41,224 nt of DNA from Nitrospira sp. (GTDB lineage Bacteria > Nitrospirota > Nitrospiria > Nitrospirales > Nitrospiraceae), in contig SWDI01000002.1 of assembly GCA_005116955.1 (NCBI GenBank), positions 166,497-207,720 on the forward strand, in the 5' to 3' direction. The notes beneath the pieces were generated by a model, which saw only the letters and a program-made list of their open reading frames with translations, was not told where the DNA came from and made no database searches. Positions 6,147-40,600 of the stretch are shown piece after piece. A program made the translations under genes and the position numbers. How positions within the stretch are numbered: the stretch's first letter is position 1; each line of letters starts with the position of its first letter.

Positions 6147-7349
6147 TTGATCAGGAATTCCGTTGTGCCCACTGCTTGGTTCAGCTTAGGGGTGGTCTCC
6201 TGTCTCCTCTCGTTGTCAGGATGTCTCTCGCCGATCACTCTGACGCGAGCCGTCATCGCCTACGACGAGGCCATCACCGAATCGCAATCCAAGCAACTGC
6301 TCGTGAACATCGCCCGAGCACAACACCATCAGCCGATTCACTTTACCGGCGTCTCCAATGTCGCGGCGACCTTCGATTTTCGTTTCACAGCCGGTGCCAC
6401 ACCGGCCCTCACCGGAGACGCCAGCCGGACGATCTTGCCTGTCATCGGCGGAAGCGTGGCCGAGAACCCGACTATCAGTATCGCTCCGATTGAGGGAGAA
6501 GAGTTTACTAAACGCTTACTCACGCCGTTCCATGAAGCCAAGCTGACGCTGTTGCTGCGGCAGGGTATCGATATCGATCTCCTCCTCCGACTAATGGCCA
6601 AAGAGCTCCGAGTAAACCAGAGCGAGGGCGCCATCGCCTATCGAAATAGTCCATCCGACAAGGCCGGCTACGAGATGTTCAGGCGGGTAGTCCTCCATCT
6701 TTCGGCCATTCAAGACCACAACAGTCTCTATGTTGAACCGCTGAACATCGAACGAAGTTGGACGATTCCCGCCGAGTCGGTCACGGCAGAAGGATTCAAA
6801 GCGCTTGAACAGGAATATCAGGTGGTCTACAACGCGAAAGAGAAGACCTTCACGTTGCGGAAGCAGATCGAAGGTGGCACGCTGATCACGAACTACGATC
6901 CAAATCTACTGTCCCGCGAAGAACGGGCCCGCTTGCAGAACGAAAACGAACAGGGACTCCCGCACGACGTGACCTTTGATATTCGCCCGGGACATGTCGG
7001 TGGCGACTGGCCACTGAAGGGAGACTTTCGGCTACGCAGCTTCAATGCCATGCTGAACTTTCTGGGGCTCTCCCTCTCTGAAGAGCCGGAGTATCATATC
7101 GAGAAAGATAGCCGCACACCTGAGGTGATGGAGAATCCGGTCAAGACGATGGATCTGATCCTGTCGTCGTCAGCTCCATCAGGGCTGGATCTCGTCATGA
7201 AATCCCACGGGAACTATTATGCCGTCAATACGACCGGGCCACAGGCGCGCTGGAACCGCGAGGCCTTCAAGCTCTTGTCGCAACTATTTCAGATGACGGT
7301 TACGGAGATCTCACGCGCCGGTGTGCCCAGCATTACCATCGCCAAATAG
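6147..7349 (+). CDS. Outer-membrane-type lipoprotein of unknown function
   Basis: A 400-residue protein. The TTG start at 6147 is chosen because GAGGAG lies 5-7 bases upstream. A signal peptide ends in the lipobox LSGC, with C26 as the lipidated cysteine. The mature part begins with an AYDEAITESQSKQLLVNIAR segment, which I recognise as a recurring but unnamed family in which short conserved helices follow lipidation. No catalytic motif is seen. It stands alone between the P450 and a convergent small membrane protein. Confidence 0.65.
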   Translation: MIRNSVVPTAWFSLGVVSCLLSLSGCLSPITLTRAVIAYDEAITESQSKQLLVNIARAQHHQPIHFTGVSNVAATFDFRFTAGATPALTGDASRTILPVIGGSVAENPTISIAPIEGEEFTKRLLTPFHEAKLTLLLRQGIDIDLLLRLMAKELRVNQSEGAIAYRNSPSDKAGYEMFRRVVLHLSAIQDHNSLYVEPLNIERSWTIPAESVTAEGFKALEQEYQVVYNAKEKTFTLRKQIEGGTLITNYDPNLLSREERARLQNENEQGLPHDVTFDIRPGHVGGDWPLKGDFRLRSFNAMLNFLGLSLSEEPEYHIEKDSRTPEVMENPVKTMDLILSSSAPSGLDLVMKSHGNYYAVNTTGPQARWNREAFKLLSQLFQMTVTEISRAGVPSITIAK

Positions 7350-7468
7350 CCTGGCAAGATCCGGTGCGTTGATGGGCTGGTTTCTACTCGAGGGATGCGA
7401 CAAACAGGCCGTACATTGAGCCTCTGAGCGAGAGGAGAAGGCCGCTGGCGGACTGTTTCCGTATTCTG

Positions 7469-7774
7469 CTACGCGTCGGCTCGATCCAGGTTGGCCTTCG
7501 GGGGACGGCGGCCGATCAGATAAATGATGGCGGGAAAAAGCATCGTGGTACCAGGGAAAATCAATCGGTACCCCCACCAGGGCAAGGTCGGCTTGAAAAA
7601 TCCAAGGCCAAGGGTTAGCAGAATCGACGCCACGATTCCATAGATGTAGGCTGGAACAAGCGTCGTAGAATGATGCTCGCTGCGTTGCCTGGATGCCGCG
7701 AAGAACCCCTTGATGAGGATATAGAGGGAGGAAATGATACAGGCGCTCCCATAATACACTGAGTAATCTTGCAT
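7469..7774 (-). CDS. Small three-span membrane protein
   Basis: 101 residues with three hydrophobic stretches (about residues 8-26, 43-60 and 72-87) and a basic C-terminal tail RRPPKANLDRADA. There is a GAGG-containing leader upstream of the ATG. No family is recognised. Several overlapping ORFs in other frames lack membrane or codon logic. It is convergent with the lipoprotein gene; the 119 bases between hold nothing obvious. Confidence 0.5.
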   Translation of the reverse strand: MQDYSVYYGSACIISSLYILIKGFFAASRQRSEHHSTTLVPAYIYGIVASILLTLGLGFFKPTLPWWGYRLIFPGTTMLFPAIIYLIGRRPPKANLDRADA

Positions 7775-7917
7775 AACCCCGACCTCGTTCTGATCTCACG
7801 TGCGTTGTTCGATAGATACTGTATAGCGTATCGCCTCCACTCTTGTCGAGCTGCTTCCCGCATGACCACGCTCCGCATCAATCCCGAGAGCTGCATTCAG
7901 CATATGTGTCATAGGAC

Positions 7918-7952
7918 GACGACCTCCGGCAACAGGGCTGCTGGAGGTCGTC
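7918..7952 (-). terminator. Hairpin terminator of the coiled-coil protein gene
   Basis: A perfect 10-bp stem, GACGACCTCC (7918-7927) with GGAGGTCGTC (7943-7952), extended inward by GGCA/TGCT with one G-U pair. It lies 48 bases beyond the stop of the minus-strand gene at 8000-8368. There is no strong T-run after it, so it may be a bidirectional or weak terminator. Confidence 0.55.
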
Positions 7953-7999
7953 TGGAAGACTGCTGAACTCTCAAGCATTGTGGATCTGAGCCGAGTCGT

Positions 8000-8368
8000 C
8001 TAGTACGGCCTAGACGTCGTGGATTCAACCGCTTCCTTGGCCTTCCTCTGGGCCTTACCTTTCTTTGCCTTTGCGGTACTCTTCATCTCCTGCCTCTCAG
8101 CCTTGAGCGCATCTCGCTTCGCTTTCATCTCGGATTTCATCTGCTCTCGTTTGGCCTTCATCTCGTCCTTCATCTGATCTTTTTTGGCTTTAAAGTTCTC
8201 CTTCATCTGCTCATGCTCTGACGCCATGTCGCCCTTTGCCTCACTGGCCATTGAACCCATGTCCTGCTTCATATCAGAACCGAGGTTCGTGAGCTCGTCC
8301 GCCATAACCAAGGGGCCACCACCGATGACGAGTGCGGATGCCACTGCCGATACAAGGATGAACCGCAT
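8000..8368 (-). CDS. Exported Lys/Met-rich coiled-coil protein
   Basis: 122 residues. A signal peptide (hydrophobic residues 4-21, cleavage after VMA) is followed by a highly charged helix with repeating units of the type QMKxEMKAKR, low complexity and no aromatic core, so it is predicted to be a continuous amphipathic helix or coiled coil in the periplasm. Such proteins resemble apolipoprotein-like or stress-induced exported helical proteins; no specific function is known. A strong ribosome binding site (AAGGGAGGG) precedes the ATG. It shares an upstream block with the small gene at 8627-8695 and ends in a similar hairpin. Confidence 0.7.
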   Translation of the reverse strand: MRFILVSAVASALVIGGGPLVMADELTNLGSDMKQDMGSMASEAKGDMASEHEQMKENFKAKKDQMKDEMKAKREQMKSEMKAKRDALKAERQEMKSTAKAKKGKAQRKAKEAVESTTSRPY

Positions 8369-8410
8369 GGATAACCCTCCCTTGAAATAGGTTGTTTCAA
8401 TGTGACCGGC

Positions 8411-8471
8411 GCCAGGAACCAGCGCCCCGTCTAGGGGTATCGTGAGACAGATTTTCTGGCAACTGATTTCA
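8411..8471 (-). promoter_or_regulatory. Duplicated promoter-like block, copy A
   Basis: 61 bases upstream of the coiled-coil gene, matched at 51 of 61 positions by 8736-8796. The centre CTAGGGGTATCG and the segment TTTTCTGGCAACTGATTTCA are identical in both copies. Read on the minus strand it holds TTGCCA, then 17 bases, then TACCCC, a possible -35/-10 pair with a poor -10. The 5' untranslated stretch would be about 65 bases. Confidence 0.55.
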
Positions 8472-8539
8472 TGGTTTTAGACTCAGGAATCTTGTGAGAC
8501 ATATGGAAAGGCAAGACAAGAAATGGAGCGCAAAGACCA

Positions 8540-8570
8540 CGGCCTCCAGCAGGCTGTCCCCTGGAGGCCG
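8540..8570 (-). terminator. Hairpin terminator after the 22-residue peptide gene
   Basis: A perfect 10-bp inverted repeat, CGGCCTCCAG (8540-8549) and CTGGAGGCCG (8561-8570), with an 11-base loop. It is placed 57 bases beyond the stop of the minus-strand small ORF at 8627-8695, mirroring the gene-to-hairpin spacing of the neighbouring unit. Confidence 0.55.
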
Positions 8571-8626
8571 CGTACGAGCATGCACCTCAAAAGAGCACGC
8601 TCGATGCTTTTACCTGGAAGCAAGCT

Positions 8627-8695
8627 TTATGGCCGGATCTCCCACAACAAATACACTAACCCGACTGCGATAGCTGACACCACGACGAAATGCAT
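8627..8695 (-). CDS. 22-residue single-span membrane peptide
   Basis: ATG at 8693-8695, stop TAA at 8627-8629. The product starts MHFVVVSAIAVGLVYLLW and ends EIRP: one hydrophobic span with a charged end. A strong ribosome binding site (GGAGG) lies 6 bases upstream. Three facts raise it above chance: the ribosome binding site, the promoter-like block 40-100 bases upstream shared with the 8000-8368 gene, and a clean hairpin downstream. No homologue is recognised. Confidence 0.55.
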   Translation of the reverse strand: MHFVVVSAIAVGLVYLLWEIRP

Positions 8696-8735
8696 GCAGA
8701 TCCTCCGTACGATTGATTGTTGTACCGTTTCCAAC

Positions 8736-8796
8736 GCCGGAACCCAGCGTCTCGACTAGGGGTATCGCGAGATGGGTTTTCTGGCAACTGATTTCA
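8736..8796 (-). promoter_or_regulatory. Duplicated promoter-like block, copy B
   Basis: Second copy of the 61-base block at 8411-8471, offset by 325 bases in the same orientation. The TTGCCA-17-TACCCC arrangement on the minus strand is kept while the spacer bases vary, which is what selection on a promoter would leave. It drives, by position, the 22-residue peptide gene. Confidence 0.5.
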
Positions 8797-8938
8797 AGAT
8801 TTGTGACATGCGGTATTCAGCGATGCTGAACATGAGACAATGTTGACGAGCGCGCCGGACAGCCACGCGCTGAGATCCGTATTACCGAACAAAACGGTGT
8901 GCTGACCAGCCACAACGAGTGCAATGAAAAGGACTTAG

Positions 8939-9133
8939 CAGTCTGCTGAAAAACTCTCTTTTTCTGACGGATGCTTCCGTTTCCTGAGATCACTAGGCGT
9001 TATCGTTTCGAGGGTGAGTGAATTCGCTGTGCTGCTGATCGTCAAATGCTCCGCGCATGATTGCCCCTCCCTTCTACCTGAAACCAGAGAATCATATTCC
9101 GCACCGCGTTGCGAGGGGTTTTTCAGCAGACTG
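8939..9133. mobile_element. Miniature inverted-repeat element with TA flanks
   Basis: The ends are a perfect 16-bp terminal inverted repeat, CAGTCTGCTGAAAAAC at 8939-8954 and its reverse complement at 9118-9133. One base outside each end there is a TA dinucleotide (8936-8937 and 9135-9136), as expected for TA-targeting transposition of IS630/Tc1-mariner-like transposases. The 195-bp body has no ORF long enough for a transposase, so it would be a non-autonomous element. The 8801-8938 stretch before it shows no gene. Confidence 0.65.
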
Positions 9134-9204
9134 TTAGAGGATGAGTAGGGGAAGAACAGGGACTGTAGATATCATTCGACTTTTCTCCCCATCAGGGTCT
9201 TCCC

Positions 9205-10038
9205 CTACCAGAGCTGTGCCCAGGTTGGGGCTGACATAGGAGTCGGTTCAAGGTTCGAGAGATCCGCTTCAAAGAGAATTTCCGGACTATCGCCTTCAAG
9301 ATTTCGTATTTGTAGCCGGCCCGTTCGTGTCGCCACGAGCAGTTGGCCTTCCCGACTCCAATCGGCCCACTGAAGATCATCCAAGAGTTCGAGCTCGCCG
9401 TTGGACTCCAGCGAGTACCGGACTCTCAGCCCATCAACGGATTGGTCGATACCAAAATCCCCTCCCGCAAACCCCACGCTTTCCACACAGAGCACTCGTG
9501 CCCCATGCGGCTGAGGTTTTCGCATGCGCGCGTTGCGTTGCACATCCCAGGCATCTCCGGGATTACGGATTGGCGAGTCCTCCGCTTCACTCCATCCTCG
9601 TCGTCGTTCATTGGCAAATTGAACAACCGGGATAGAGTGTAGGCTGTAGGGAATCGGGAGCTTCTCCATCTGCTGATCGTCACGACTGCTCTCTTCTGTG
9701 AAGTAGTAACCGCGAGTCCAAGTCCCACAGGTGGCGAAAGCATGAAGCGCCGTCAGCCACGGAAGTTTCGACAGGGCGACATACGCCTCGCCATGTTCCC
9801 ACCTGGCGCTCGGTTTATGTGCAAAGTAGCAGAGGTACTGTCCGTCTGGAGAAAGATCCGATCGCCGCGGAAAGATGCGACCGCCGAGCCAGGCCCCGGG
9901 TTCGTATCGGCCCGCAGCCAGATCCCACCGCCCCACATGCGCCCAGTTACTCGGTCCCCGACGAAACACAGCCACCACCGGCGCCTGAGTTGCTGGGATG
10001 CAGTAGATACGAGGAGCGGCCCGCTGAATGTCTGCCAT
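9205..10038 (-). CDS. Conserved hypothetical protein, beta-propeller-like pattern
   Basis: 277 residues from the ATG at 10036-10038; an ORF extends 33 codons further upstream, but that part looks non-conserved and has no ribosome binding site. It opens with PRIYCIPATQAPVVAVFRRG and GRWDLAAGRYEPGAWLGGRI, followed by DLSPDGQYLCYFA, a TolB/WD-like strand motif. A second strand set near the C-terminus (WADWSREGQLLVATRTGRLQ) is similar. I recognise this as a recurring family of unknown function that may report or bind through a small propeller. No signal peptide, so probably cytoplasmic. Confidence 0.6.
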   Translation of the reverse strand: MADIQRAAPRIYCIPATQAPVVAVFRRGPSNWAHVGRWDLAAGRYEPGAWLGGRIFPRRSDLSPDGQYLCYFAHKPSARWEHGEAYVALSKLPWLTALHAFATCGTWTRGYYFTEESSRDDQQMEKLPIPYSLHSIPVVQFANERRRGWSEAEDSPIRNPGDAWDVQRNARMRKPQPHGARVLCVESVGFAGGDFGIDQSVDGLRVRYSLESNGELELLDDLQWADWSREGQLLVATRTGRLQIRNLEGDSPEILFEADLSNLEPTPMSAPTWAQLW

Positions 10039-10186
10039 GCCGAGCACCACGGTATATCGCACTTGCAGAACAATGATTGGGAGATCACACCTGTTCTGAG
10101 ACGAATCTTGCCGGGCGAATCCGCGATCGGCAAGCAAGAGATGGAAATGCGCAGAAGTAGCGGTGTTGAGATCAGCGGTCCTAGCT

Positions 10187-25839: not shown

Positions 25840-26755
25840 GACGCACTCCTTGATGTTGAACGAGAAACCACCCCGTGACCATCGAACGGATGTTGTTGAA
25901 GAACCCTGTGAGAATTACCTGGAGAACGTGAATCACGATGAAGCCGATAAACGAAAAACAGGCAACAAAGTGAATCGTCCTCGCCGTTTGGCGTCCTCCC
26001 GATATGGTCAAGAGCCAGGGAAACGCGGTGTCGATCGTCGGCGACATCGCCAGACCAGTGAACACAATCAGCGGTGCCACGATGAACAAGACCGTGGCAT
26101 AGGCCAACTTCTGAAGGATGTTGTACCGCTTCGCTTCTTTGCCGCTTGGATGTCGCAGGAGCAGATGATCTCTGAGTGATTTGCCAATGCCACGAAACTC
26201 TTTGCCGGTTGGAGCCAGGTCGCGAGTGGCATGTCGGCTCGCGAAGGCATAGGCTGTGAACACGAGGCCATTGATCACAAAGAACCATGCGAAGAACAGG
26301 TGCCATTGCCGCCCCATCGCCAGCCACTTGGCGCTGGGAATCGTCGCCCAGGCTGGGAAAGCGCGTCTCATGTCGTCGGAGTAGCCGAGCACGCCGGTCG
26401 TATCGAACTGATGCCCCAGGATCGTGGTCATACCCCTTATCTCACCGCTTTCAGTTTGCATGGGCCTGATTGAGAGTACTGCCTGGTCGCGATCAGAACG
26501 GTCGCCCCAATAGAGCGCTGGGTGCGCATTGAAAATCTGCAGGCCACTCATGATGAGGATGATCAGGAATGGGACATTCATCCAGTGACTGATCCTGACT
26601 GGAAGTCGATGGCGGTACACTCGCTCAATTACAGGGGGAGTCGAAATCATGGGGGTACTCACTGTCGATAACGTTTCAGATGCCGACGGCTCTACAATCG
26701 GCATCTGAGCTCCCTCCCTACTGATAGCTTCTTCCGACTGAATGAGTAACGCCAT
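25829..26755 (-). CDS. Cytochrome b (b561/hydrogenase-type), electron donor to the molybdenum enzyme
   Basis: 308 residues from the ATG at 26753-26755, with GGAGGGGG just upstream. A cytoplasmic lead segment is followed by four hydrophobic spans. Candidate haem histidines are in RISHWMNV (span 1), GRQWHLFFAW (span 2), and RTIHFVACFS with IGFIVIHVLQV (last span). An unusual hydrophilic insert (LYWGDRSDRDQAVLSI) lies between spans 1 and 2. It transfers electrons from quinol across the membrane to the MsrP-like partner. A segment of this gene (26084-26515) recurs at 32159-32590. Confidence 0.85.
   Translation of the reverse strand: MALLIQSEEAISREGAQMPIVEPSASETLSTVSTPMISTPPVIERVYRHRLPVRISHWMNVPFLIILIMSGLQIFNAHPALYWGDRSDRDQAVLSIRPMQTESGEIRGMTTILGHQFDTTGVLGYSDDMRRAFPAWATIPSAKWLAMGRQWHLFFAWFFVINGLVFTAYAFASRHATRDLAPTGKEFRGIGKSLRDHLLLRHPSGKEAKRYNILQKLAYATVLFIVAPLIVFTGLAMSPTIDTAFPWLLTISGGRQTARTIHFVACFSFIGFIVIHVLQVILTGFFNNIRSMVTGWFLVQHQGVRHEV
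26084..26515 (-). repeat. Cytochrome b segment, copy 1 of a direct repeat
   Basis: 432 bases that align without gaps to 32159-32590 in the same orientation, with scattered substitutions (roughly 90% identical by eye). Similarity stops abruptly after CAATAGAG on the right and at GAACAAG on the left. Together the copies bracket the islet at 26.5-32.2 kb. This copy is inside the intact cytochrome b gene. Confidence 0.8.
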
Positions 26756-26974: not shown

Positions 26975-27807
26975 ATGAACACCACAGGCTATACGCACTT
27001 GAGTCCTGAAGAACGAGCCACCCTGAGCCTGGGCCTCGCCCAGGGGTAGCCGCTCCGGATGATAGCCCGCGTGTTGGGCCGCGCGCCCAGCACCCTGTGA
27101 GCCGGGAATGCGCCCGCAACACAACGCGGGCCATCCCTATCGCGCCTGCACAGCGCAGATCCAGGCGGCCGCCAGGGTGCACCAGCCCCGACGCCCCCGG
27201 AAACTCCTGGATCCCTGGTTGTGGGCGTCTGCCCAGACCCACCTGAAAGACGGCTGCTCGCCGGAACAGATTGCGGGCCACCTGCGACGCGCGTCTACTG
27301 CCGACATGCGCCAACACCTCTCGCCCGAGACCATCTATGCCGCGCTGTACGTGTTGCCTCGTGGCACGCTGCGCAGTGAATTACTGGCCGCCCTGCGTCA
27401 GGCACGCAAGGCGCGCCAGCCTCTGGCACGAGGGACTGCCCGCCGCGGCCAGCTCCCCAATATGACGCCGATTGTCGAGCGTCCCGCCGAGGTGGCCTCC
27501 CGCACAGTCCCAGGCCACTGGGAAGGCGACCTCATCAAGGGAGCCCGCAATGGCTCAGCGGTCGGCACGCTGGTCGAACGGACGACACGCCTGGTGCTCC
27601 TGGCCAAGATGAATGGGACCGATGCGAGGAGTGCGCGTGAAGGTTTCACGAAGAAGCTTCGGCATGTCCCCGCGCTGCTGCGCCAGTACTTACCCAAGGG
27701 CACGGACTTGTCGGGCTACACGCAGTAGAAACTGTCCCGACTTTGCCACGCCCCTGGAAGTCTATGCGCACCTGCGCCATTATTCACCCGTTGCACTTGG
27801 AACTTGA
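26975..27807 (+). pseudogene. IS30-family transposase wreck
   Basis: It begins MNTTGYTHLSPEERATLSLG, the IS30 N-terminal helix-turn-helix region, and is broken by TAG at 27047-27049 and a TGA soon after. It reads on in a second frame (27108-27728) with the conserved SPEQIAGHLRR, ETIYAALY and VPGHWEGDLIKGARNGSAVG (first catalytic Asp region). The middle of the catalytic domain is deleted: LRHVPALL jumps to RQYLPKGTDLSGYTQ. A third frame supplies the tail TPLEVYAHLRHYSPVALGT, to the stop at 27805. Weak inverted ends with GTGCAAC lie near 26937 and 27790. No active transposase can be made. Confidence 0.85.
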
Positions 27808-27935: not shown

Positions 27936-29855
27936 ATGCCAACTTCATCACCGCATATAAGGACTTTTCGCGGACGCATGTGGCACTGGCTTTATAATTT
28001 TTGGCTTTCCCATGTTAGCACCTACACATGGTGGAGGCAGCTGAGACCTACTGCCTGGCAAGGTGTCGCTTGGATAGTTTCCATTTACCGGCTGAGCCTT
28101 CGTAGAGCTGTCTTTATCGGCGTCACCGGCAGTTGTGGCAAAACTACAACGAAGGAAATGATTGCCGCAGTGCTCTCCAGCCAATTCAAAGGTCACAAGA
28201 GCCATGCCAATGATAATACCTTAATTGGAGTAATACAGACTATATTACGTACCAGACGGGAATATAACTTTTGCGTACAGGAGTTCACCGTCGGTAGGCT
28301 CGGTGAAGCGATTTCTTTAGAAAAACAGTTCGAAATGTTTAAGCCTCAGATGGGTGTGGTAACCACCGTGGGAGATGATCATATCAGCGCGCACGGCAGT
28401 AGAGAGGCAATCGCTGCTGAAAAGGGAAAATTGATTGCCGCGCTCCCGTACAATGGCACCGCAATCCTGAATGCGGATGACCCTCTCGTCCTGGCGATGC
28501 AAAGCCGCTGCAGAGGGCGCACACTGACGTACGGCCTGTCCCCGGATGCCATGCTGCGTGCGGAAGATGTCCGCGACAATTGGCCTAACCGTTTGTCATT
28601 GACTGTCCGGTATGGGGATGAATCGGTTAGAGTGCAAACTCAATTGTGCGGCGCACACTTAGTGCCGAATGTGCTTGCTGCGATGACCGCCGGGAAAGCC
28701 ATGGGTGTCAGCCTTCAATCGGCGGCGGCGGCGCTAGAAGGCTTGTCCCCGGTTCCAGGGCGTATGTATCCGATTGAAACCCCTGAGGGCGTGACGTTTA
28801 TCTGCGATGACGTGAAGGCTTCTGTATGGGCAATCCCTCCGGCGTTGGATTTCATGCGACGCGCCGCTGCAAAACGCAGAATTGTTATCCTAGGTACTCT
28901 TTCGGATTATCTAAAACCCATGAATCCGACCTATGCTCAGGTCGCCAGACAGGCATTGGAGGTGGCCGATTACGTGTTTTTCGTCGGTCCCTGGGCCTCA
29001 CGCTGCCTTCGTGCCAAGCGGCATCCCAAAGACCAAGCGTTGCAGGCTTTTGTTACTGTGGACCAAATCAATGGATTCTTGCAGGGGTTTTTGGAGCCGG
29101 GCGATTTGGTCCTAATTAAGGGATCATCACGCACCGATGGTCTATCGCGCATCGTATCGGTCTGGAGTCGCAAGCCGCAGGGACGGTCTGTTGAAGTTCA
29201 CCCTGATCGAGACAGCGCGATCCCGGTGCAGTTCGCGAGTGATACTTCAATTCTTTCTACTGACGGCGCGATGCAGGATAAGGGGATGAGCCAACTGGTT
29301 GTGGGCTTAGGCAACCCCGGCAAGCGTTTTGAACAGACTCCTCATAACGTGGGCCAATGGACGCTGGAGCTGCTTGCCGAATCGTTACAGGCGAAGTGGT
29401 CTGAGGAAAATTTTGGCTTAGTGGCTAGAACTCAAGTTGAAGGCCAACCGGTGCTTTTGGTTAAACCGGCGACTGAGATGAACCATACTGGGCCATGGGT
29501 GCGACAGATGGCGGATCAATACCAATTGAAGATCCAAGACTGTGTGGTCATTCAGGATGATATTCACCTCAAGCCAGGCGAAGTGCGCAATAGAATGAGT
29601 GGCAGCTCCGGAGGGCACAAAGGCATGCAGTCCATCATCGCCGCATTTCAAAGCGAAGATATCCGTCGAGTCAAGATAGGTGTAGGCGTACCTACCGATG
29701 GGACACCAGTTGCAAGATATGTGTTAACGCCATTTGAAGGCCCGGAGCGTGACTTGGTCGAGAATGCCTGCCGTCGAGCCGCCACACGCGTCGTCGAGAT
29801 GATTGAAATGCGATCCAGCAAGATTTCACGGAACTTGGGAAACGCATCAATTTGA
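27936..29855 (+). CDS. Mur ligase fused to peptidyl-tRNA hydrolase domain
   Basis: 639 residues in one uninterrupted frame; GGGGGA lies six bases before the ATG. Residues about 58-410 are a MurF-class ligase: P-loop GVTGSCGKTTTKE (62-74), metal region HISAHGS (149-154) with EAIAAEKGKLI, LNADDP (178-183), PVPGRM (272-277) and KGSSRTDGLSR (395-405). The usual N-terminal UDP-MurNAc-binding domain is replaced by about 57 residues with a hydrophobic patch (AWQGVAWIVSIY). Residues 453-630 are a Pth domain: LGNPG (N460), TPHNVG (H470, catalytic), EMNHTG (N516), DDIHLKPGE (D541/D542), GGHKGMQS. Catalytic groups for ligase and hydrolase are all present. An internal ATG at codon 451 follows AGGATAAGGGG and might also yield free Pth. 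The substrate is unknown. Confidence 0.88.
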   Translation: MPTSSPHIRTFRGRMWHWLYNFWLSHVSTYTWWRQLRPTAWQGVAWIVSIYRLSLRRAVFIGVTGSCGKTTTKEMIAAVLSSQFKGHKSHANDNTLIGVIQTILRTRREYNFCVQEFTVGRLGEAISLEKQFEMFKPQMGVVTTVGDDHISAHGSREAIAAEKGKLIAALPYNGTAILNADDPLVLAMQSRCRGRTLTYGLSPDAMLRAEDVRDNWPNRLSLTVRYGDESVRVQTQLCGAHLVPNVLAAMTAGKAMGVSLQSAAAALEGLSPVPGRMYPIETPEGVTFICDDVKASVWAIPPALDFMRRAAAKRRIVILGTLSDYLKPMNPTYAQVARQALEVADYVFFVGPWASRCLRAKRHPKDQALQAFVTVDQINGFLQGFLEPGDLVLIKGSSRTDGLSRIVSVWSRKPQGRSVEVHPDRDSAIPVQFASDTSILSTDGAMQDKGMSQLVVGLGNPGKRFEQTPHNVGQWTLELLAESLQAKWSEENFGLVARTQVEGQPVLLVKPATEMNHTGPWVRQMADQYQLKIQDCVVIQDDIHLKPGEVRNRMSGSSGGHKGMQSIIAAFQSEDIRRVKIGVGVPTDGTPVARYVLTPFEGPERDLVENACRRAATRVVEMIEMRSSKISRNLGNASI

Positions 29856-29958
29856 ATTGTAGCATCCGAGGCATTGGTCTTCACAGTACTCAGCTGGCTT
29901 AATCTCAGGGGAGCACACAGATTTCTGCCAAAATGATGTAGTTCATGGAATATATATT

Positions 29959-31281
29959 ATGAAAATCTTACAGCCATTATTGTTTGCGATCCGGAAACGG
30001 ATTTTCACCAATTTTGATCTTCGACACCGCCTTTTTTATCTTCAACACCGCATTATTCACCTCCGATCTCCTGTGTGTTTACCGTGGTTCAAGATGAGGG
30101 GGAAACAGGACACCGTAAACCGTATTCATCGGTTAGCCTTGGAGATTACTCGTTCACGGATGCGGGGGGGTATGGTTAAGGGTGTACTGGTTTGGCCTAT
30201 CGTTTCGCTACTACTAGCCCTTTACGCTGTCTATCGTTATGGTATTCATGTAGAAAAGAGGTATCGGATCAGCTTGTGGTTGCAATGGAAACAGATTGTC
30301 TACTTGGCAAATGTATACAATCTCCCACCCCAATCGTATTACGATTTCAGGCTTTGGAACGACTCAAATCTAATAAAGGCCGATCAATATATTGTGTGGC
30401 CAGAACATGCCGTCATATTTGATTGGCTCAATAGGAACCTTGACACCAAAACACTCGATAACAAGATTTCCTTCTTTGAATTCTGTCATTCGACTGACAT
30501 CCCAACCCCACCCATAATTGCGAGGTTCGATAGATCTGGAATGGAGCAGTGGTATTGCGATAGTTCGAGTTTTCCCAAGGTGGATCTGGTCGTCAAGCCC
30601 AGCACTTTGAGTTGTGGTGAAGGCGTGGAACGATGGGAGCATGTTGAAGTCTGTCAGAAATGGAAGCGAGGTGATTCATTGCTAAACCACTCAGAGCTTT
30701 TGTCTTATTGCCGCCACCTTGCTGCTAAACACCAGTTGATCGTCCAACCACGATTGCGGAACCACCCCAGCATCGAACAATTTAGCAATAGTGCACTTGG
30801 TACGTTACGTGTAGTTTCCTATCACCTACCCAATACAAAACCGGCACTTTTTCAATCCTGTTTCCGGATGCCCGTAGGAAGGGGAGAAGCTGACAATTTT
30901 AATGCTGGCGGAATCGCTGCTGGGGTGTCCGAGAGAGGTAAATTAGGAGTGGCTGTAGGGAAAGATGTCAGAGCCGGTCTTTTCTCACATCATCCTGATA
31001 CACAGGCCAGAATCGAGGGTGTAGACTTGCCCTATTGGCAACAAATGGTGGACCTGGCTTTATTGGCTCACGAACGACTCGGTGGCCCTTGTTTTGTGGG
31101 TTGGGATATTGCCTTGACGATAAATGGGCCAATTGTACTTGAAGGGAACGACAAGTTTGGTGTGGATTTGGCACAGATGCCTCAAGGGCAACCGCTTGGT
31201 GAGACCAAGTACGCGGAAATCGTTACTGCTGCCGTGAATGCAACAAACCCTGAGCCATTGCTGAAGAACATCCTCGTGTGA
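29959..31281 (+). CDS. Membrane-associated ATP-grasp ligase, sugar-transfer-associated type
   Basis: 440 residues. One hydrophobic segment (about 77-93) is followed by a domain matching the sugar-transfer-associated ATP-grasp group (ATPgrasp_ST): VDLVVKPSTLSCGEGV (208-223, ATP-binding lysine and loop), GTLRVVS (281-287), FNAGGIAAGV (314-323) and the metal-binding end VGWDIALTINGPIVLEGN (380-397). ATP-grasp enzymes join a carboxylate to an amine or thiol through an acyl-phosphate. It lies 103 bases after the Mur ligase-Pth gene on the same strand and is visibly more A+T-rich than the surrounding chromosome, suggesting transfer. It probably works with the upstream ligase. No clear Shine-Dalgarno. 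Confidence 0.82.
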   Translation: MKILQPLLFAIRKRIFTNFDLRHRLFYLQHRIIHLRSPVCLPWFKMRGKQDTVNRIHRLALEITRSRMRGGMVKGVLVWPIVSLLLALYAVYRYGIHVEKRYRISLWLQWKQIVYLANVYNLPPQSYYDFRLWNDSNLIKADQYIVWPEHAVIFDWLNRNLDTKTLDNKISFFEFCHSTDIPTPPIIARFDRSGMEQWYCDSSSFPKVDLVVKPSTLSCGEGVERWEHVEVCQKWKRGDSLLNHSELLSYCRHLAAKHQLIVQPRLRNHPSIEQFSNSALGTLRVVSYHLPNTKPALFQSCFRMPVGRGEADNFNAGGIAAGVSERGKLGVAVGKDVRAGLFSHHPDTQARIEGVDLPYWQQMVDLALLAHERLGGPCFVGWDIALTINGPIVLEGNDKFGVDLAQMPQGQPLGETKYAEIVTAAVNATNPEPLLKNILV

Positions 31282-31586: not shown

Positions 31587-31800
31587 ATGGGTGAAGCACC
31601 ACGCAAGGCCGTGGTCAGGTCACGGCAGTCAATTGCACTCGATAAATTCGGTGGCCGGATCCACGTGGAATGGGACCCCTGCTGCAGCCGTGACTCCTCT
31701 TGGACAGCTACCCTTCTTCATCGAATTTCTCAAAGTGAGCGGCGTCTTCGAGGCCTGGGTGGCGAGTGCCCGCTGGCCTACCACAGTGACCTCGGTCGTC
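31587..31800 (+). pseudogene. IS4/IS1380-like transposase N-terminal fragment
   Basis: Pieces in alternating frames: DKFGGRIHVEWDP, then AAVTPLGQLPFFIEFLKVSG with VFEAWVAS, then ECPLAYHSD. They make up the start of a DDE transposase I know as an IS4- or IS1380-like type. Two frameshifts and an abrupt end near 31800 show it is a remnant. It lies between the two IS3 fragments, so this side of the islet is a nest of broken insertions. Confidence 0.6.
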
Positions 31801-32731
31801 AATAGTGGACGCCATGAATTGCAGCCTCATGCCGCCAGCTGTTGACGGACCCATTGCTGGGCAAATGTCGCGGGCGAGCGATGTCCAGACCGCGCAGGGA
31901 ATAGGGGTAGATCCGATGGGCCGGATGCCGCTGCGTGGTGCAGGGCGTGCGATACACGGCGGTGATCCCCATGCGGCGCATCAGCGTGGCCACCCGCCGC
32001 CGCCCGATGGCGTGGCCCTCTTGCCGGAGGAGATCTCGCAACATCCTGGCGCCAGCAAACGGATACTGCAGATACAGCTCGTCGATCCACCGCATCAGCG
32101 CCAGCACCGGATCCGAGACCGGCGTCGGTTGATAGTAGGCCGTCGAGCGCGCCACGCCGAACAAGATACAGGCGTAGGCCAGCTTCTGAAGGACGTTGTA
32201 CCGCTTGGCTTCTTTGCCGCTTGGATGTCGCAGGAGCAGATGATCGCTGAGTGACTTGCCGATGCCACGAAGGTCTTTGCCGGTTGGAGCCAGGTCGCGA
32301 GTGGCATGTCGGCTCGCGAAAGCATAAGCGGTGAAAATCAGCCCGTTGAGCACAAAAAGCCAGGCGAAAAACAGATGCCATTGCCGCCCCATCGCAAGCC
32401 ACTTGGCGCTGGGAATGGTCGCCCATGCCGGAAAGGCCCGTCTCATGCCGTCCGAGTAGCCAAGCACGCCGGTTGTATCAAACTTATGACCGAGGATAGT
32501 CGTGATACCCATTTCCTCACCACTTTCAGTCTGCATAGGCCTGATTGAGAGTACTGCCTGGTCGCGATCAGAACGGTCGCCCCAATAGAGGGAAATCCAC
32601 TTGTCATCGTCGGCTTTGATTGTGCCACCAGCATAAGCACTCGGCAGCGTGGATCCCATTCCAGCCACCAGTGCCGTCATGGCTCCAGCAACTAAAACCT
32701 TTTTCCACCGCCTCGTAAGATGTTCCTTCAT
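31799..32731 (-). CDS. Three-part chimeric ORF: export signal + cytochrome b piece + IS3 transposase piece
   Basis: 310 residues from the ATG at 32729-32731, which has a strong AGGGAGGG ribosome binding site. Residues 1-48 are a signal peptide (KKVLVAGAMTALVAG to SAYAGG) and the start of a mature protein (GTIKADDDKWISL) like outer-membrane porins of nitrite oxidisers. Residues 49-190 are a cytochrome b interior (LYWGDRSDRDQAV to LQKLAYACILF). Residues 191-286 are the N-terminal part of IS3 OrfB (GVARSTAYYQPTPVSDP to YPYSLRGLDIARP). The tail is out of register. All three pieces are fused in frame, which is striking, but none is complete. A native function is unlikely; expression from the porin signal may occur. 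It could be tagged a pseudogene. Confidence 0.7.
   Translation of the reverse strand: MKEHLTRRWKKVLVAGAMTALVAGMGSTLPSAYAGGTIKADDDKWISLYWGDRSDRDQAVLSIRPMQTESGEEMGITTILGHKFDTTGVLGYSDGMRRAFPAWATIPSAKWLAMGRQWHLFFAWLFVLNGLIFTAYAFASRHATRDLAPTGKDLRGIGKSLSDHLLLRHPSGKEAKRYNVLQKLAYACILFGVARSTAYYQPTPVSDPVLALMRWIDELYLQYPFAGARMLRDLLRQEGHAIGRRRVATLMRRMGITAVYRTPCTTQRHPAHRIYPYSLRGLDIARPRHLPSNGSVNSWRHEAAIHGVHY
32159..32590 (-). repeat. Cytochrome b segment, copy 2 of a direct repeat
   Basis: 432 bases aligned end to end with 26084-26515 in the same orientation, at roughly 90% identity by eye. It is embedded in the chimeric ORF. The substitutions show it is not a recent copy of that gene; a second cytochrome b paralogue probably existed here and was broken by the insertion events. 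Confidence 0.8.
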
Positions 32732-34222: not shown

Positions 34223-34588
34223 ATGGACAAACCCGACCCAACACGAATCAAACTGCACATGTCAAAAGACCCCATGTATCTGATGCTTCGCGAAGGCTGC
34301 ATCAAGGAGTTTAATGTCAAAAAGGCCTCCGGCGACACATGCGACCTTCGCGGGCTCGACCTTCGCGGGCTGGACCTTCGAGGGCTCGATGCCGATGGAT
34401 TGGATTTCACCGATTGCTATTTTCGGCAGTCCGACCTGAGAGGGGTCGACCTGAGCAAGGCCAAGATGGACGGCGCCAGCATCAACGCCTGCCAGATTTC
34501 CGGTGTCTTATTCCCTTCAGAGCTGAGCGCCTCTGAAATCGAGCTCTCACTTCTACATGGGACAAGAATGCGATATCGGGACAAATAG
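34223..34588 (+). CDS. Small pentapeptide-repeat protein
   Basis: 121 residues with a GGAGG ribosome binding site. Residues 41-95 form pentapeptide repeats of the A(D/N)LxG kind: DLRGL three times in tandem, then DADGL, DFTDC, YFRQS, DLRGV, DLSKA, KMDGA. These build a right-handed quadrilateral beta-helix. The three identical units are encoded by near-perfect 15-base repeats at 34343-34387, which suggests recent unit duplication. Pentapeptide proteins vary in role (topoisomerase protection, scaffolding), and this one cannot be assigned. The N-terminal 40 residues are non-repeat. Confidence 0.85.
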   Translation: MDKPDPTRIKLHMSKDPMYLMLREGCIKEFNVKKASGDTCDLRGLDLRGLDLRGLDADGLDFTDCYFRQSDLRGVDLSKAKMDGASINACQISGVLFPSELSASEIELSLLHGTRMRYRDK

Positions 34589-37898: not shown

Positions 37899-37975
<77 letters not shown>

Positions 37976-37990
37976 GTTCCAATATTTCAA

Positions 37991-39112
37991 CTACTTGGAC
38001 AAGTGACTCTCCACGGCCATGTCACTTGGTGTTATTAGGGTGTTAACGTCAAGGTACTTTTGCACCTTCAAGGCGGCTTCAGTCAAGTCTCTCTCCTCTA
38101 TTGAGTTGTACCGCTTCCACATCTTCTCTGACTTGTGACCAACAATCTTCATCGCGGTTGCTGTATCCACACCGGCGCGTCGTAGGTTTGTCGAGGCACA
38201 ATGACGGAGATCATGGAATCTAAAGTCGGTTATTCCGGCATCGCTCAACGCGGTCCTGAAGGATCGGCTGATACGTTGAAGCGGTCGGCCCTTGTAGGTG
38301 AACACGTGGTTATTCGTCAGACTGCGAATTTTGGCCAAGCGTTGGAGAGTTGATCGAACGTCTGCGGTCATGGGAATACGCCTCCCGGTTTTGGTCTTGG
38401 TGTCTTGACTTCGAAGGGTGATGAATCCCCGACGGAGATCAACACGGTCCCACGTCAGAGACACAATCTCCCCGAACCGTTGGCCGAGTTGATAGGCCGT
38501 CAAGAGCACCGGGCGGAGGTGTGGCTTCGCGGCCTGATGTAACCGGCCCCATTCTTCTTCCGTGAGCACTCGATCCCGTTCGTTCTGGGGGTTGGGTATC
38601 TCGACTCTGGACGCGGGGTTGGCCTGGAGCAGTCCCCGCTTGATCGCCATGTTCAGGCAGTGTTTTAACGCAATGTGGTCATGGTTGATTGTCTGTGTAC
38701 TCGCCTTGATTCCGTTGGGTTTCGTGCGTTGATTGCGGAAGGCTTCCACATCCTGAGGCTTGATCTCTGACAGGATCTTCTGGCCGAAGAACGGGATGAG
38801 GTGAGTGTTGATACTGTAGGCTCGTCCCACGAAGGAACGAAGTCCTCGGACGGTTTCCAGCTCCAGGTAAGCCTTCGCCCATTCTTTGAAGAAGATCGGC
38901 TTGGCTTGTTCGGTCTTCTCGTGGCCTAGGAGGAGTCGTGTCCTGATGGTGGCTTCCATCTCCTTGGCAACAGTCTTATTGAGACACCCCACCTTCCAGC
39001 GTTTCCAACGGGCACCGGGTACACCACTCGCGAGGACCAATGATTTTCCGTCCGCACTTTCGATCACCGGAAACTCCACATAGTAACTATCGCGCCGTTT
39101 AGTGAGTCCCAT
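37991..39112 (-). CDS. Tyrosine recombinase (integrase)
   Basis: 373 residues from MGLTKRRDSYY, with GGAGAG upstream. An N-terminal arm-binding and SAM-like core-binding domain (residues 70-165) is followed by the catalytic domain with R212 (GQRFGEIVSLTW), a probable lysine around K239-K241, HDLRH (H300, R303), GHKS (H326) and the nucleophile Y335 (WKRYNS). All catalytic residues are present, so it should be active. It overlaps the excisionase by 14 bases and ends 16 bases from the 5' end of tRNA-Arg, marking an integrated element. The arrangement is unusual because the gene lies on the 5' side of the tRNA. Confidence 0.93.
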   Translation of the reverse strand: MGLTKRRDSYYVEFPVIESADGKSLVLASGVPGARWKRWKVGCLNKTVAKEMEATIRTRLLLGHEKTEQAKPIFFKEWAKAYLELETVRGLRSFVGRAYSINTHLIPFFGQKILSEIKPQDVEAFRNQRTKPNGIKASTQTINHDHIALKHCLNMAIKRGLLQANPASRVEIPNPQNERDRVLTEEEWGRLHQAAKPHLRPVLLTAYQLGQRFGEIVSLTWDRVDLRRGFITLRSQDTKTKTGRRIPMTADVRSTLQRLAKIRSLTNNHVFTYKGRPLQRISRSFRTALSDAGITDFRFHDLRHCASTNLRRAGVDTATAMKIVGHKSEKMWKRYNSIEERDLTEAALKVQKYLDVNTLITPSDMAVESHLSK

Positions 39113-39296
39113 GGCTGTCTCTCCGTGGTGTGATCGTGTGCTGATCGATCCAGGCATCCAGCTGAGCTTGCTTGAACTTCACCAGCCGTCCGATTTTGAC
39201 GTACCCCAGTTTCCTCGCGGAAACCCATCCGTACAGGGTCAATTTGGATATGCCTAAATACTTCGCGGCCTCATCCATTGTCAAAAGGTTATTCAT
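39099..39296 (-). CDS. Excisionase-type DNA-binding protein
   Basis: 65 residues with the HTH_17/MerR-like excisionase fold: TMDEAAKYLGISKLTLYGWV (helix-turn-helix), then the wing KIGRLVKFKQAQLDAWID. Such proteins bend DNA at att sites and steer the recombinase to excision. The stop overlaps the integrase start by 14 bases, so they are co-transcribed in the order xis-int. Confidence 0.85.
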   Translation of the reverse strand: MNNLLTMDEAAKYLGISKLTLYGWVSARKLGYVKIGRLVKFKQAQLDAWIDQHTITPRRDSHGTH

Positions 39297-39929: not shown

Positions 39930-40280
39930 ATGGCCTGGACAGTCGTCTACTATGAGACGGCGCAGGGAGATAAGCCGATTGAGGCATTTCTCGACGCCTT
40001 GTCCCATGGAGCGCGAGCCAAATGTCTGGCCTATATCAGTCGGCTTGAAATTGATGGGACGCGTCTTCCCGCCTCGATTGCGGCACACGTCCGAGGCAAG
40101 ATCTGGGAGCTGCGTCCGGAATGGTCGGGGACTGAGTACCGGTTCTTTTATGCCGCATTCGTGAGGCAGCGGTTCGTCATCCTGCATGCGATCCGGAAGA
40201 AACGGCAGAAACTGCGAGAACGAGACATCGCCATCGCGGAGCAACGATACGAGGAGGTCACGCGCAAGGCGTCACGATGA
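39930..40280 (+). CDS. HigB-type toxin (RelE superfamily, Gp49-like)
   Basis: 116 residues of the phage-derived Gp49/DUF891 group of RelE/HigB toxins: GKIWELRPEWSGTEYRFFY (57-74) and FVILHAIRKKRQKLRERDIA (82-101) hold the basic and aromatic residues used in ribosome-dependent mRNA cleavage. It overlaps the antitoxin start by four bases (ATGA at 40277-40280), the toxin-first order of higBA. There is no Shine-Dalgarno; the promoter suggests leaderless translation. Confidence 0.88.
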   Translation: MAWTVVYYETAQGDKPIEAFLDALSHGARAKCLAYISRLEIDGTRLPASIAAHVRGKIWELRPEWSGTEYRFFYAAFVRQRFVILHAIRKKRQKLRERDIAIAEQRYEEVTRKASR

Positions 40281-40600
40281 ACACGCATAGACAGTACATC
40301 AACGAACAGATCAGGAAAGAACCAAAATTCGCCGAGGCTCTTGCGAAGGCGGAGCAGGAAGTGGGGATTGCCGTGGAGCTGGCGAGGCTACGGGAACGAC
40401 GGGGGTTGAGTCAGACTGAGCTCGCGAAACTCACCGGCATGAAACAGCCGCAGATCGCCCGCTTGGAAAGCGGGGCCCATTTCCCCGCGTTTCCAACCCT
40501 GCAAAAGCTTCTCGGCGTGCTTGGTGGCAAATTGGAACTAACAGCGGATGCCTGCCATCTCGTTCCCACACGACTGAAGGTCGCCAGCGCGCGACGGTAG
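40277..40600 (+). CDS. HigA-type antitoxin, XRE helix-turn-helix
   Basis: 107 residues. The XRE helix-turn-helix RRGLSQTELAKLTGMKQPQI (about 41-60) with ARLESG after it is the DNA-binding part; the helical N-terminal 35 residues probably wrap the toxin. It should repress the operon through the palindrome at 39902-39919 and neutralise the toxin by direct binding. The translational overlap with the toxin couples their synthesis. Confidence 0.88.
   Translation: MNTHRQYINEQIRKEPKFAEALAKAEQEVGIAVELARLRERRGLSQTELAKLTGMKQPQIARLESGAHFPAFPTLQKLLGVLGGKLELTADACHLVPTRLKVASARR

Follow-up and report, generated by a model that had tools for sequence, protein, structure and literature searches.

A single reading frame of 639 codons, at positions 27936 to 29855 on the forward strand of the window (the whole stretch of 41,224 nucleotides of Nitrospira DNA analysed here), encodes a truncated MurF-like ligase followed by a peptidyl-tRNA hydrolase (Pth) domain. 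The fusion is a real, conserved and rare architecture made of known domains, and it is additional to the housekeeping murF and pth genes of its host. It is probably a genuine and undescribed two-activity protein, because selection keeps both of its halves intact. In its housekeeping role Pth rescues translation, while the Mur ligases are enzymes of the cell wall.

The frame was taken from a list of open reading frames, and its main domains score many-fold over the curated Pfam cut-offs. The central Mur ligase domain (Mur_ligase_M, PF08245) covers residues 63-252 with an E-value of 4.3e-35, the C-terminal Mur ligase domain (Mur_ligase_C, PF02875) covers residues 275-397 with an E-value of 2.5e-10, and the hydrolase domain (Pept_tRNA_hydro, PF01195) covers residues 454-625 with an E-value of 2e-48 and a score of 165 bits against a cut-off of 27. 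The coordinates and domains that the earlier note, made from the letters of the DNA, had given for a MurF-class ligase joined to a Pth are thus right, and the motifs it quoted are present. An AlphaFold model of the whole fusion, built from an alignment of only four sequences, reached a pLDDT of 52, too low to be informative. Scans for promoters and terminators gave results at chance level.

Occurrence, selection and independence from the housekeeping genes

A family-level search of 175 genomes found the fusion only in the genome of the window, in a second genome of the same genus (G057), whose fusion is 71 % identical to that of the window, and in a third genome (G849), which, judged by the number of the contig and the position on it, appears to be that of Nitrospira sp. 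ACE_NIT7, in which a fusion of 68 % identity was found at locus L056. A fourth fusion, of 49 % identity, is present in Nitrospirales bacterium Dino_bin26 (locus L057). A profile search of contigs with a single fusion sequence returned no matches; loci L056-L059 were found by the same kind of search with a two-sequence alignment. No further fusions were added by a phylum sample of 396 genomes, and only stand-alone relatives were found in a planctomycete sample of 392 genomes; these genome sets are samples, and the occurrence of the fusion may be wider. The recurrence of the same in-frame architecture in three more Nitrospirota genomes removes the possibility, raised at the outset, that the fusion is a sequencing artefact. 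No description of a MurF-like ligase joined to a Pth was found in the literature searched, most subscription journals lying outside it, which agrees with the original description of the system as a candidate undescribed one.

When the DNA of the window is compared with that of G057 and of Dino_bin26, the matches are confined to the fusion gene, and the comparison with ACE_NIT7 adds only two matches of 52-68 bp; the neighbouring genes are therefore not common to the fusion loci. Among the fusions of the window, G057 and ACE_NIT7 the Mur domains have dN/dS ratios of 0.15-0.20 and the Pth domain has ratios of 0.17-0.19, so that both halves are constrained to a similar degree, while the linker and the N-terminus are under looser constraint than either domain. 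Carriage as prophage or plasmid cargo was considered and rejected, since no relatives of the fusion were found in viral contigs and no full-length matches on plasmids.

In the host genome (3.65 Mb, 99.8 % complete) a full-length murF lies with other mur ligases at C5:130002. There is also a stand-alone pth, at C5:104838, flanked by genes whose translations read as ribosomal-protein-L25-like and ychF-like. Both of the separate genes that the earlier note had proposed to look for are accordingly present, and its view that the ligase is probably not the housekeeping MurF is borne out by the host's own murF. A stand-alone pth is likewise found in all four fusion genomes. That the frame is merely the housekeeping MurF and Pth joined together, or an artefact of assembly, is scarcely credible: nothing but family resemblance speaks for it, and against it stand the host's own murF and pth elsewhere in the genome, the same fusion in three further genomes, and the separate clades that the fusions form in both the Mur and the Pth trees. 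A fused housekeeping pair was therefore ruled out.

The two halves of the protein

The protein begins with a basic, poorly conserved leader of only about 57 residues (positions 27936 to 28106, forward strand), which stands before the P-loop domain in the place of the N-terminal UDP-substrate domain of Mur ligases; no match to that domain was found with Pfam. Basic leaders, with net charges of +5 to +13, are present in all ten family members compared. The central and C-terminal Mur domains follow (residues 58-408, positions 28107 to 29159, forward strand), and here the P-loop residues G65, S66, G68 and K69, together with Glu116, His149, Lys163, Asn179, Asp181 and Asp182, are invariant in an alignment that extends from the fusions to the host's own MurF. 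The fused ligase thus shares with MurF these two domains and the ATP-site and catalytic residues, but it differs in lacking the UDP-substrate domain, in scoring below the MurF threshold and in forming a separate clade; where the host's MurF has a DxYNANP loop, the fused ligase has DDVKASVW. MurF, the UDP-N-acetylmuramoyl-tripeptide--D-Ala-D-Ala ligase, is nevertheless its nearest named relative (TIGR01143, E-value 3.9e-65, 220.4 bits against a cut-off of 288.6). In the Mur tree the fusions (99/98) and the stand-alone relatives lie apart from the housekeeping MurF sequences (98/99), with long branches for some of the stand-alone relatives. The ligase belongs to a small family, distinct from MurF, in which the Mur ligases are truncated and their N-termini basic.

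The stand-alone members compared are six: those of three planctomycetes (L058, L103 and L104), of genomes G082 and G407, and of Gemmobacter. Every one ends in a tail with the cysteine pattern CxxxxCx5-6CxxC (Cys4), which is found in none of the four fusions, and the fused Pth begins after the same point of the alignment as this tail. By parsimony, the Pth would have replaced the Cys4 tail once. In the window the corresponding position is occupied by a variable linker (residues 409-452, positions 29160 to 29291, forward strand), delimited from the alignment and from dN/dS. This unnamed class of truncated Mur ligases, marked by the basic leader and the Cys4 tail, was found in Nitrospirota, Planctomycetota and Gemmobacter, an alphaproteobacterium; genes of this kind lie at positions 9899-11185 of L058, 9261-10499 of L103, 9510-10808 of L104, 9018-10331 of L045, 8834-10141 of L049 and 9902-11227 of L054.

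A known parallel is MurT, the Mur ligase subunit of the lipid II amidotransferase MurT/GatD: it too has no UDP-binding domain, and its substrate, lipid II, is membrane-anchored (PMC6085368). MurT differs, however, in having no active-site histidine, a residue that is invariant in the fused ligases, and in carrying its cysteines in an insertion, whereas those of the stand-alone relatives are in a tail and those of the fusions are absent. Membership in the MurT family was rejected: the MurT model gives the G057 fusion 18.3 bits against a cut-off of 800, and the window protein is not among its matches. No GatD glutaminase stands beside the fusion, the next gene being a sugar-transfer-associated ATP-grasp gene and the other neighbours scanned with Pfam having no glutaminase match. 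Membership among the cyanophycin synthetases was rejected in the same way (49 bits against a cut-off of 877).

The Pth domain occupies residues 453-626 (positions 29292 to 29813, forward strand), and it scores 152.9 bits with the family profile TIGR00447, for which the cut-off is 100. The equivalents of N10, H20, N68, D93 and H113 are retained in all four fusions, as are basic residues at the equivalents of E. coli positions 103, 105, 131 and 133. In the window protein H20 corresponds to H470. Two of these basic positions (K105 and R133 in E. coli) presumably contact the tRNA phosphate. N10, H20 and D93 have been reported to be crucial for Pth activity (PMC4929431). Since these Pth residues are retained, an involvement of tRNA is plausible, but no more than that. 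A model of the Pth domain by itself has a pLDDT of 83 and matches solved Pth structures with Z-scores of about 24-27, giving the full Pth fold; the highest score in the list (27.2), tied with those of several Pths, belongs to CRS2, a Pth-derived splicing factor.

The fused domain thus has the fold, the catalytic residues and the family profile of bacterial Pth1, but it differs from it in being fused, in four characteristic substitutions, in the loss of a C-terminal stretch and in its divergent clade. The substitutions R19P, H92Q, D96H/S and F66E/A mark the fused Pths (the window domain has R19P, H92Q and D96H) and occur in none of 35 stand-alone Pths of the order (loci L007 and L061-L097), nearly all of which have the C-terminal MNxF stretch that is missing from the fused domain. 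The description of the domain as a complete Pth consequently holds for the modelled fold but not for the C-terminus. In the Pth tree a single divergent clade with long branches (100/99) holds all the fused Pths, and the order's stand-alone enzymes (97/99) are separate from it. As a result of the substitutions and of the loss of the MNxF stretch, the activity or the substrate of the fused Pth may differ from that of the stand-alone enzymes. The change N114K was considered as a mark of a dead Pth and rejected, because lysine or arginine is found there in 9 of the 35 stand-alone Pths; the Asn114 position is therefore not strictly conserved among active-looking enzymes.

The ATP-grasp neighbour and the genomic setting

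The gene that follows the fusion (positions 29959 to 31281, forward strand, 440 residues) encodes a protein of the sugar-transfer-associated ATP-grasp family ATPgrasp_ST (Pfam, E-value 9.8e-42, 143.5 bits against a cut-off of 31.4), with one hydrophobic segment near residue 73 in a hydropathy analysis. Of 162 genomes of the order, 24 have a member of the family that scores above the cut-off, as do two of the four fusion genomes. The pairing of ligase and ATP-grasp enzyme pointed out in the earlier note is thus correct as regards the next gene, but not as regards a fixed partnership, which was rejected since the G057 fusion also stands without ATPgrasp_ST; the gene is an optional neighbour. A precedent for a glycan-associated ATP-grasp enzyme that amidates a surface-glycan uronic acid is the TupA-like C-terminal domain of Cj1438, which forms an amide on glucuronic acid of the Campylobacter capsule (PMC11800379), although that domain is by name TupA-like rather than ATPgrasp_ST and is joined to a glycosyltransferase, not to a Mur ligase or a Pth.

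The settings of the other family members vary. The ACE_NIT7 fusion is part of a polysaccharide cluster that also contains ATPgrasp_ST, glycosyltransferases, a DegT aminotransferase and a sugar transferase, and the Dino_bin26 fusion lies near two glycosyltransferases; neither ATPgrasp_ST nor a polysaccharide cluster was found beside the G057 fusion in the stretches read. The stand-alone relative of G082 has both ATPgrasp_ST and an asparagine-synthase-like gene in its vicinity and that of Gemmobacter is among glycosyltransferases, while several other stand-alone relatives are in non-glycan contexts and the planctomycete settings differ from one another. In G407 (L049, positions 6911-10141) the stand-alone truncated Mur ligase gene belongs to a larger cluster, and about 34 bp after it comes an asparagine synthase gene of the same orientation. 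Among the neighbours of the fusion in the window, none was identified as a tRNA-charging or Fem-type gene.

The fusion and its ATP-grasp neighbour are flanked on the left by a decayed and truncated IS30-family transposase gene (positions 27000 to 27728, forward strand; NCBIfam transpos_IS30, E-value 1.9e-44, profile positions 11-186 of 267) and on the right by a remnant of an IS3-family transposase gene (positions 31799 to 32254, reverse strand; NCBIfam transpos_IS3, E-value 1.3e-15, a partial match below the cut-off, and Pfam HTH_21). Outside these remnants a direct repeat of 440 bp (88 %) of a cytochrome b561-like gene is found at positions 26076-26515 and 32151-32590, the right copy being joined in frame to the IS3 remnant. 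Because the remnants flank the pair and the repeat lies outside them, the arrangement is consistent with a reshuffled accessory segment. Elsewhere in the window, a tRNA-Arg (TCT) gene lies beside a tyrosine-recombinase integrase gene at 37899-39157, possibly an integration site of a mobile element; two small overlapping genes at 39930-40600, the second with weak antitoxin or HTH-repressor matches, may be a toxin-antitoxin pair; and a short reading frame at 34223-34588 has repeated GLDLR motifs that look by eye like a pentapeptide repeat.

Proposed function and alternative readings

The reading favoured here, held tentatively, is that the fusion couples two activities, those of an accessory amide ligase, probably associated with the membrane and perhaps serving to decorate surface glycans, and of a hydrolase that acts on peptidyl- or N-acyl-aminoacyl-tRNA. 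The gene would have been acquired or relocated as one unit, and its product would act outside housekeeping wall synthesis and translation. In the reaction of Mur ligases a carboxylate becomes an acyl phosphate and is then passed to an amine, and the action of Pth on peptidyl-tRNA yields a free carboxylate, so that the Mur half might take as substrate the class of compound that the Pth half produces, which would be the simplest reason for the fusion. The Mur half would use ATP to activate a carboxylate as acyl phosphate and join it to an amine; since there is no UDP-binding domain and the N-terminus is basic, it would probably act, like MurT, on a glycan or peptide linked to the membrane rather than on a soluble UDP-sugar. 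The Pth half would cleave the ester of a peptidyl or N-acyl-aminoacyl group, in the simplest case one carried by tRNA, and might either free the carboxylate for the Mur half or remove tRNA by-products that this pathway generates. Operons that combine Mur ligase genes with tRNA-using cyclodipeptide synthases have been reported (PMC2922099). Surface polysaccharide decoration is the likely setting, in view of the ACE_NIT7 cluster, the glycosyltransferases by the Dino_bin26 fusion and in Gemmobacter, and the ATPgrasp_ST of G082. Against this proposal stand the G057 fusion without such neighbours, the relatives in non-glycan contexts, the substitutions and MNxF loss of the fused Pth, and the window's lack of a tRNA-charging or Fem-type neighbour; it would, moreover, be wasteful to free a tRNA ester and then to reactivate the product with ATP. 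A narrower version, in which an amino acid or short peptide is attached in a tRNA-dependent manner to a surface glycan or lipid carrier, the acyl group freed by the Pth half being re-ligated through an acyl phosphate by the Mur half, is improbable.

Three other readings, each rather unlikely, concern the Pth half and its coupling to the ligase. The fused Pth could be a true hydrolase that acts not on tRNA but on an ester-linked N-acyl-aminoacyl group of the product or of a lipid or glycan carrier, which it would cut or edit; the retention of N10, H20 and D93 amid altered near-site residues in all four fusions, the loss of the C-terminal stretch and the long divergent branch speak for this, but the basic residues at the equivalents of E. 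coli positions 103, 105, 131 and 133 are all kept. It could instead have ceased to hydrolyse and serve, like CRS2, as a regulatory module or as one that binds RNA, tRNA or a partner. The position of the domain at the site of the Cys4 tail fits such a role, given that the cysteine-rich element of MurT serves the interface with its partner (PMC6085368), and CRS2 does head the list of structural matches; its tie with several Pths, however, means that CRS2 is not favoured, and the catalytic residues are fully kept, with dN/dS equal to that of the ligase. The halves could, lastly, be enzymatically uncoupled, a chance fusion having been kept for a spare peptidyl-tRNA hydrolase. Each domain is indeed recognizable alone, the linker is variable, and M451 of the window fusion is a possible internal start for the Pth, but the other three fusions do not share this methionine, the in-frame fusion is kept in all four across a large divergence, and a stand-alone pth is already present in each of these genomes.

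The conserved fusion of spare copies of a Pth and a Mur ligase suggests that peptidyl-tRNA chemistry may have been recruited into an amide-forming pathway outside translation. The fusion also brings to light the truncated Mur ligases with a Cys4 tail, a small family without a name, the product of which is directly testable, and the two halves of the fusion can be assayed separately.
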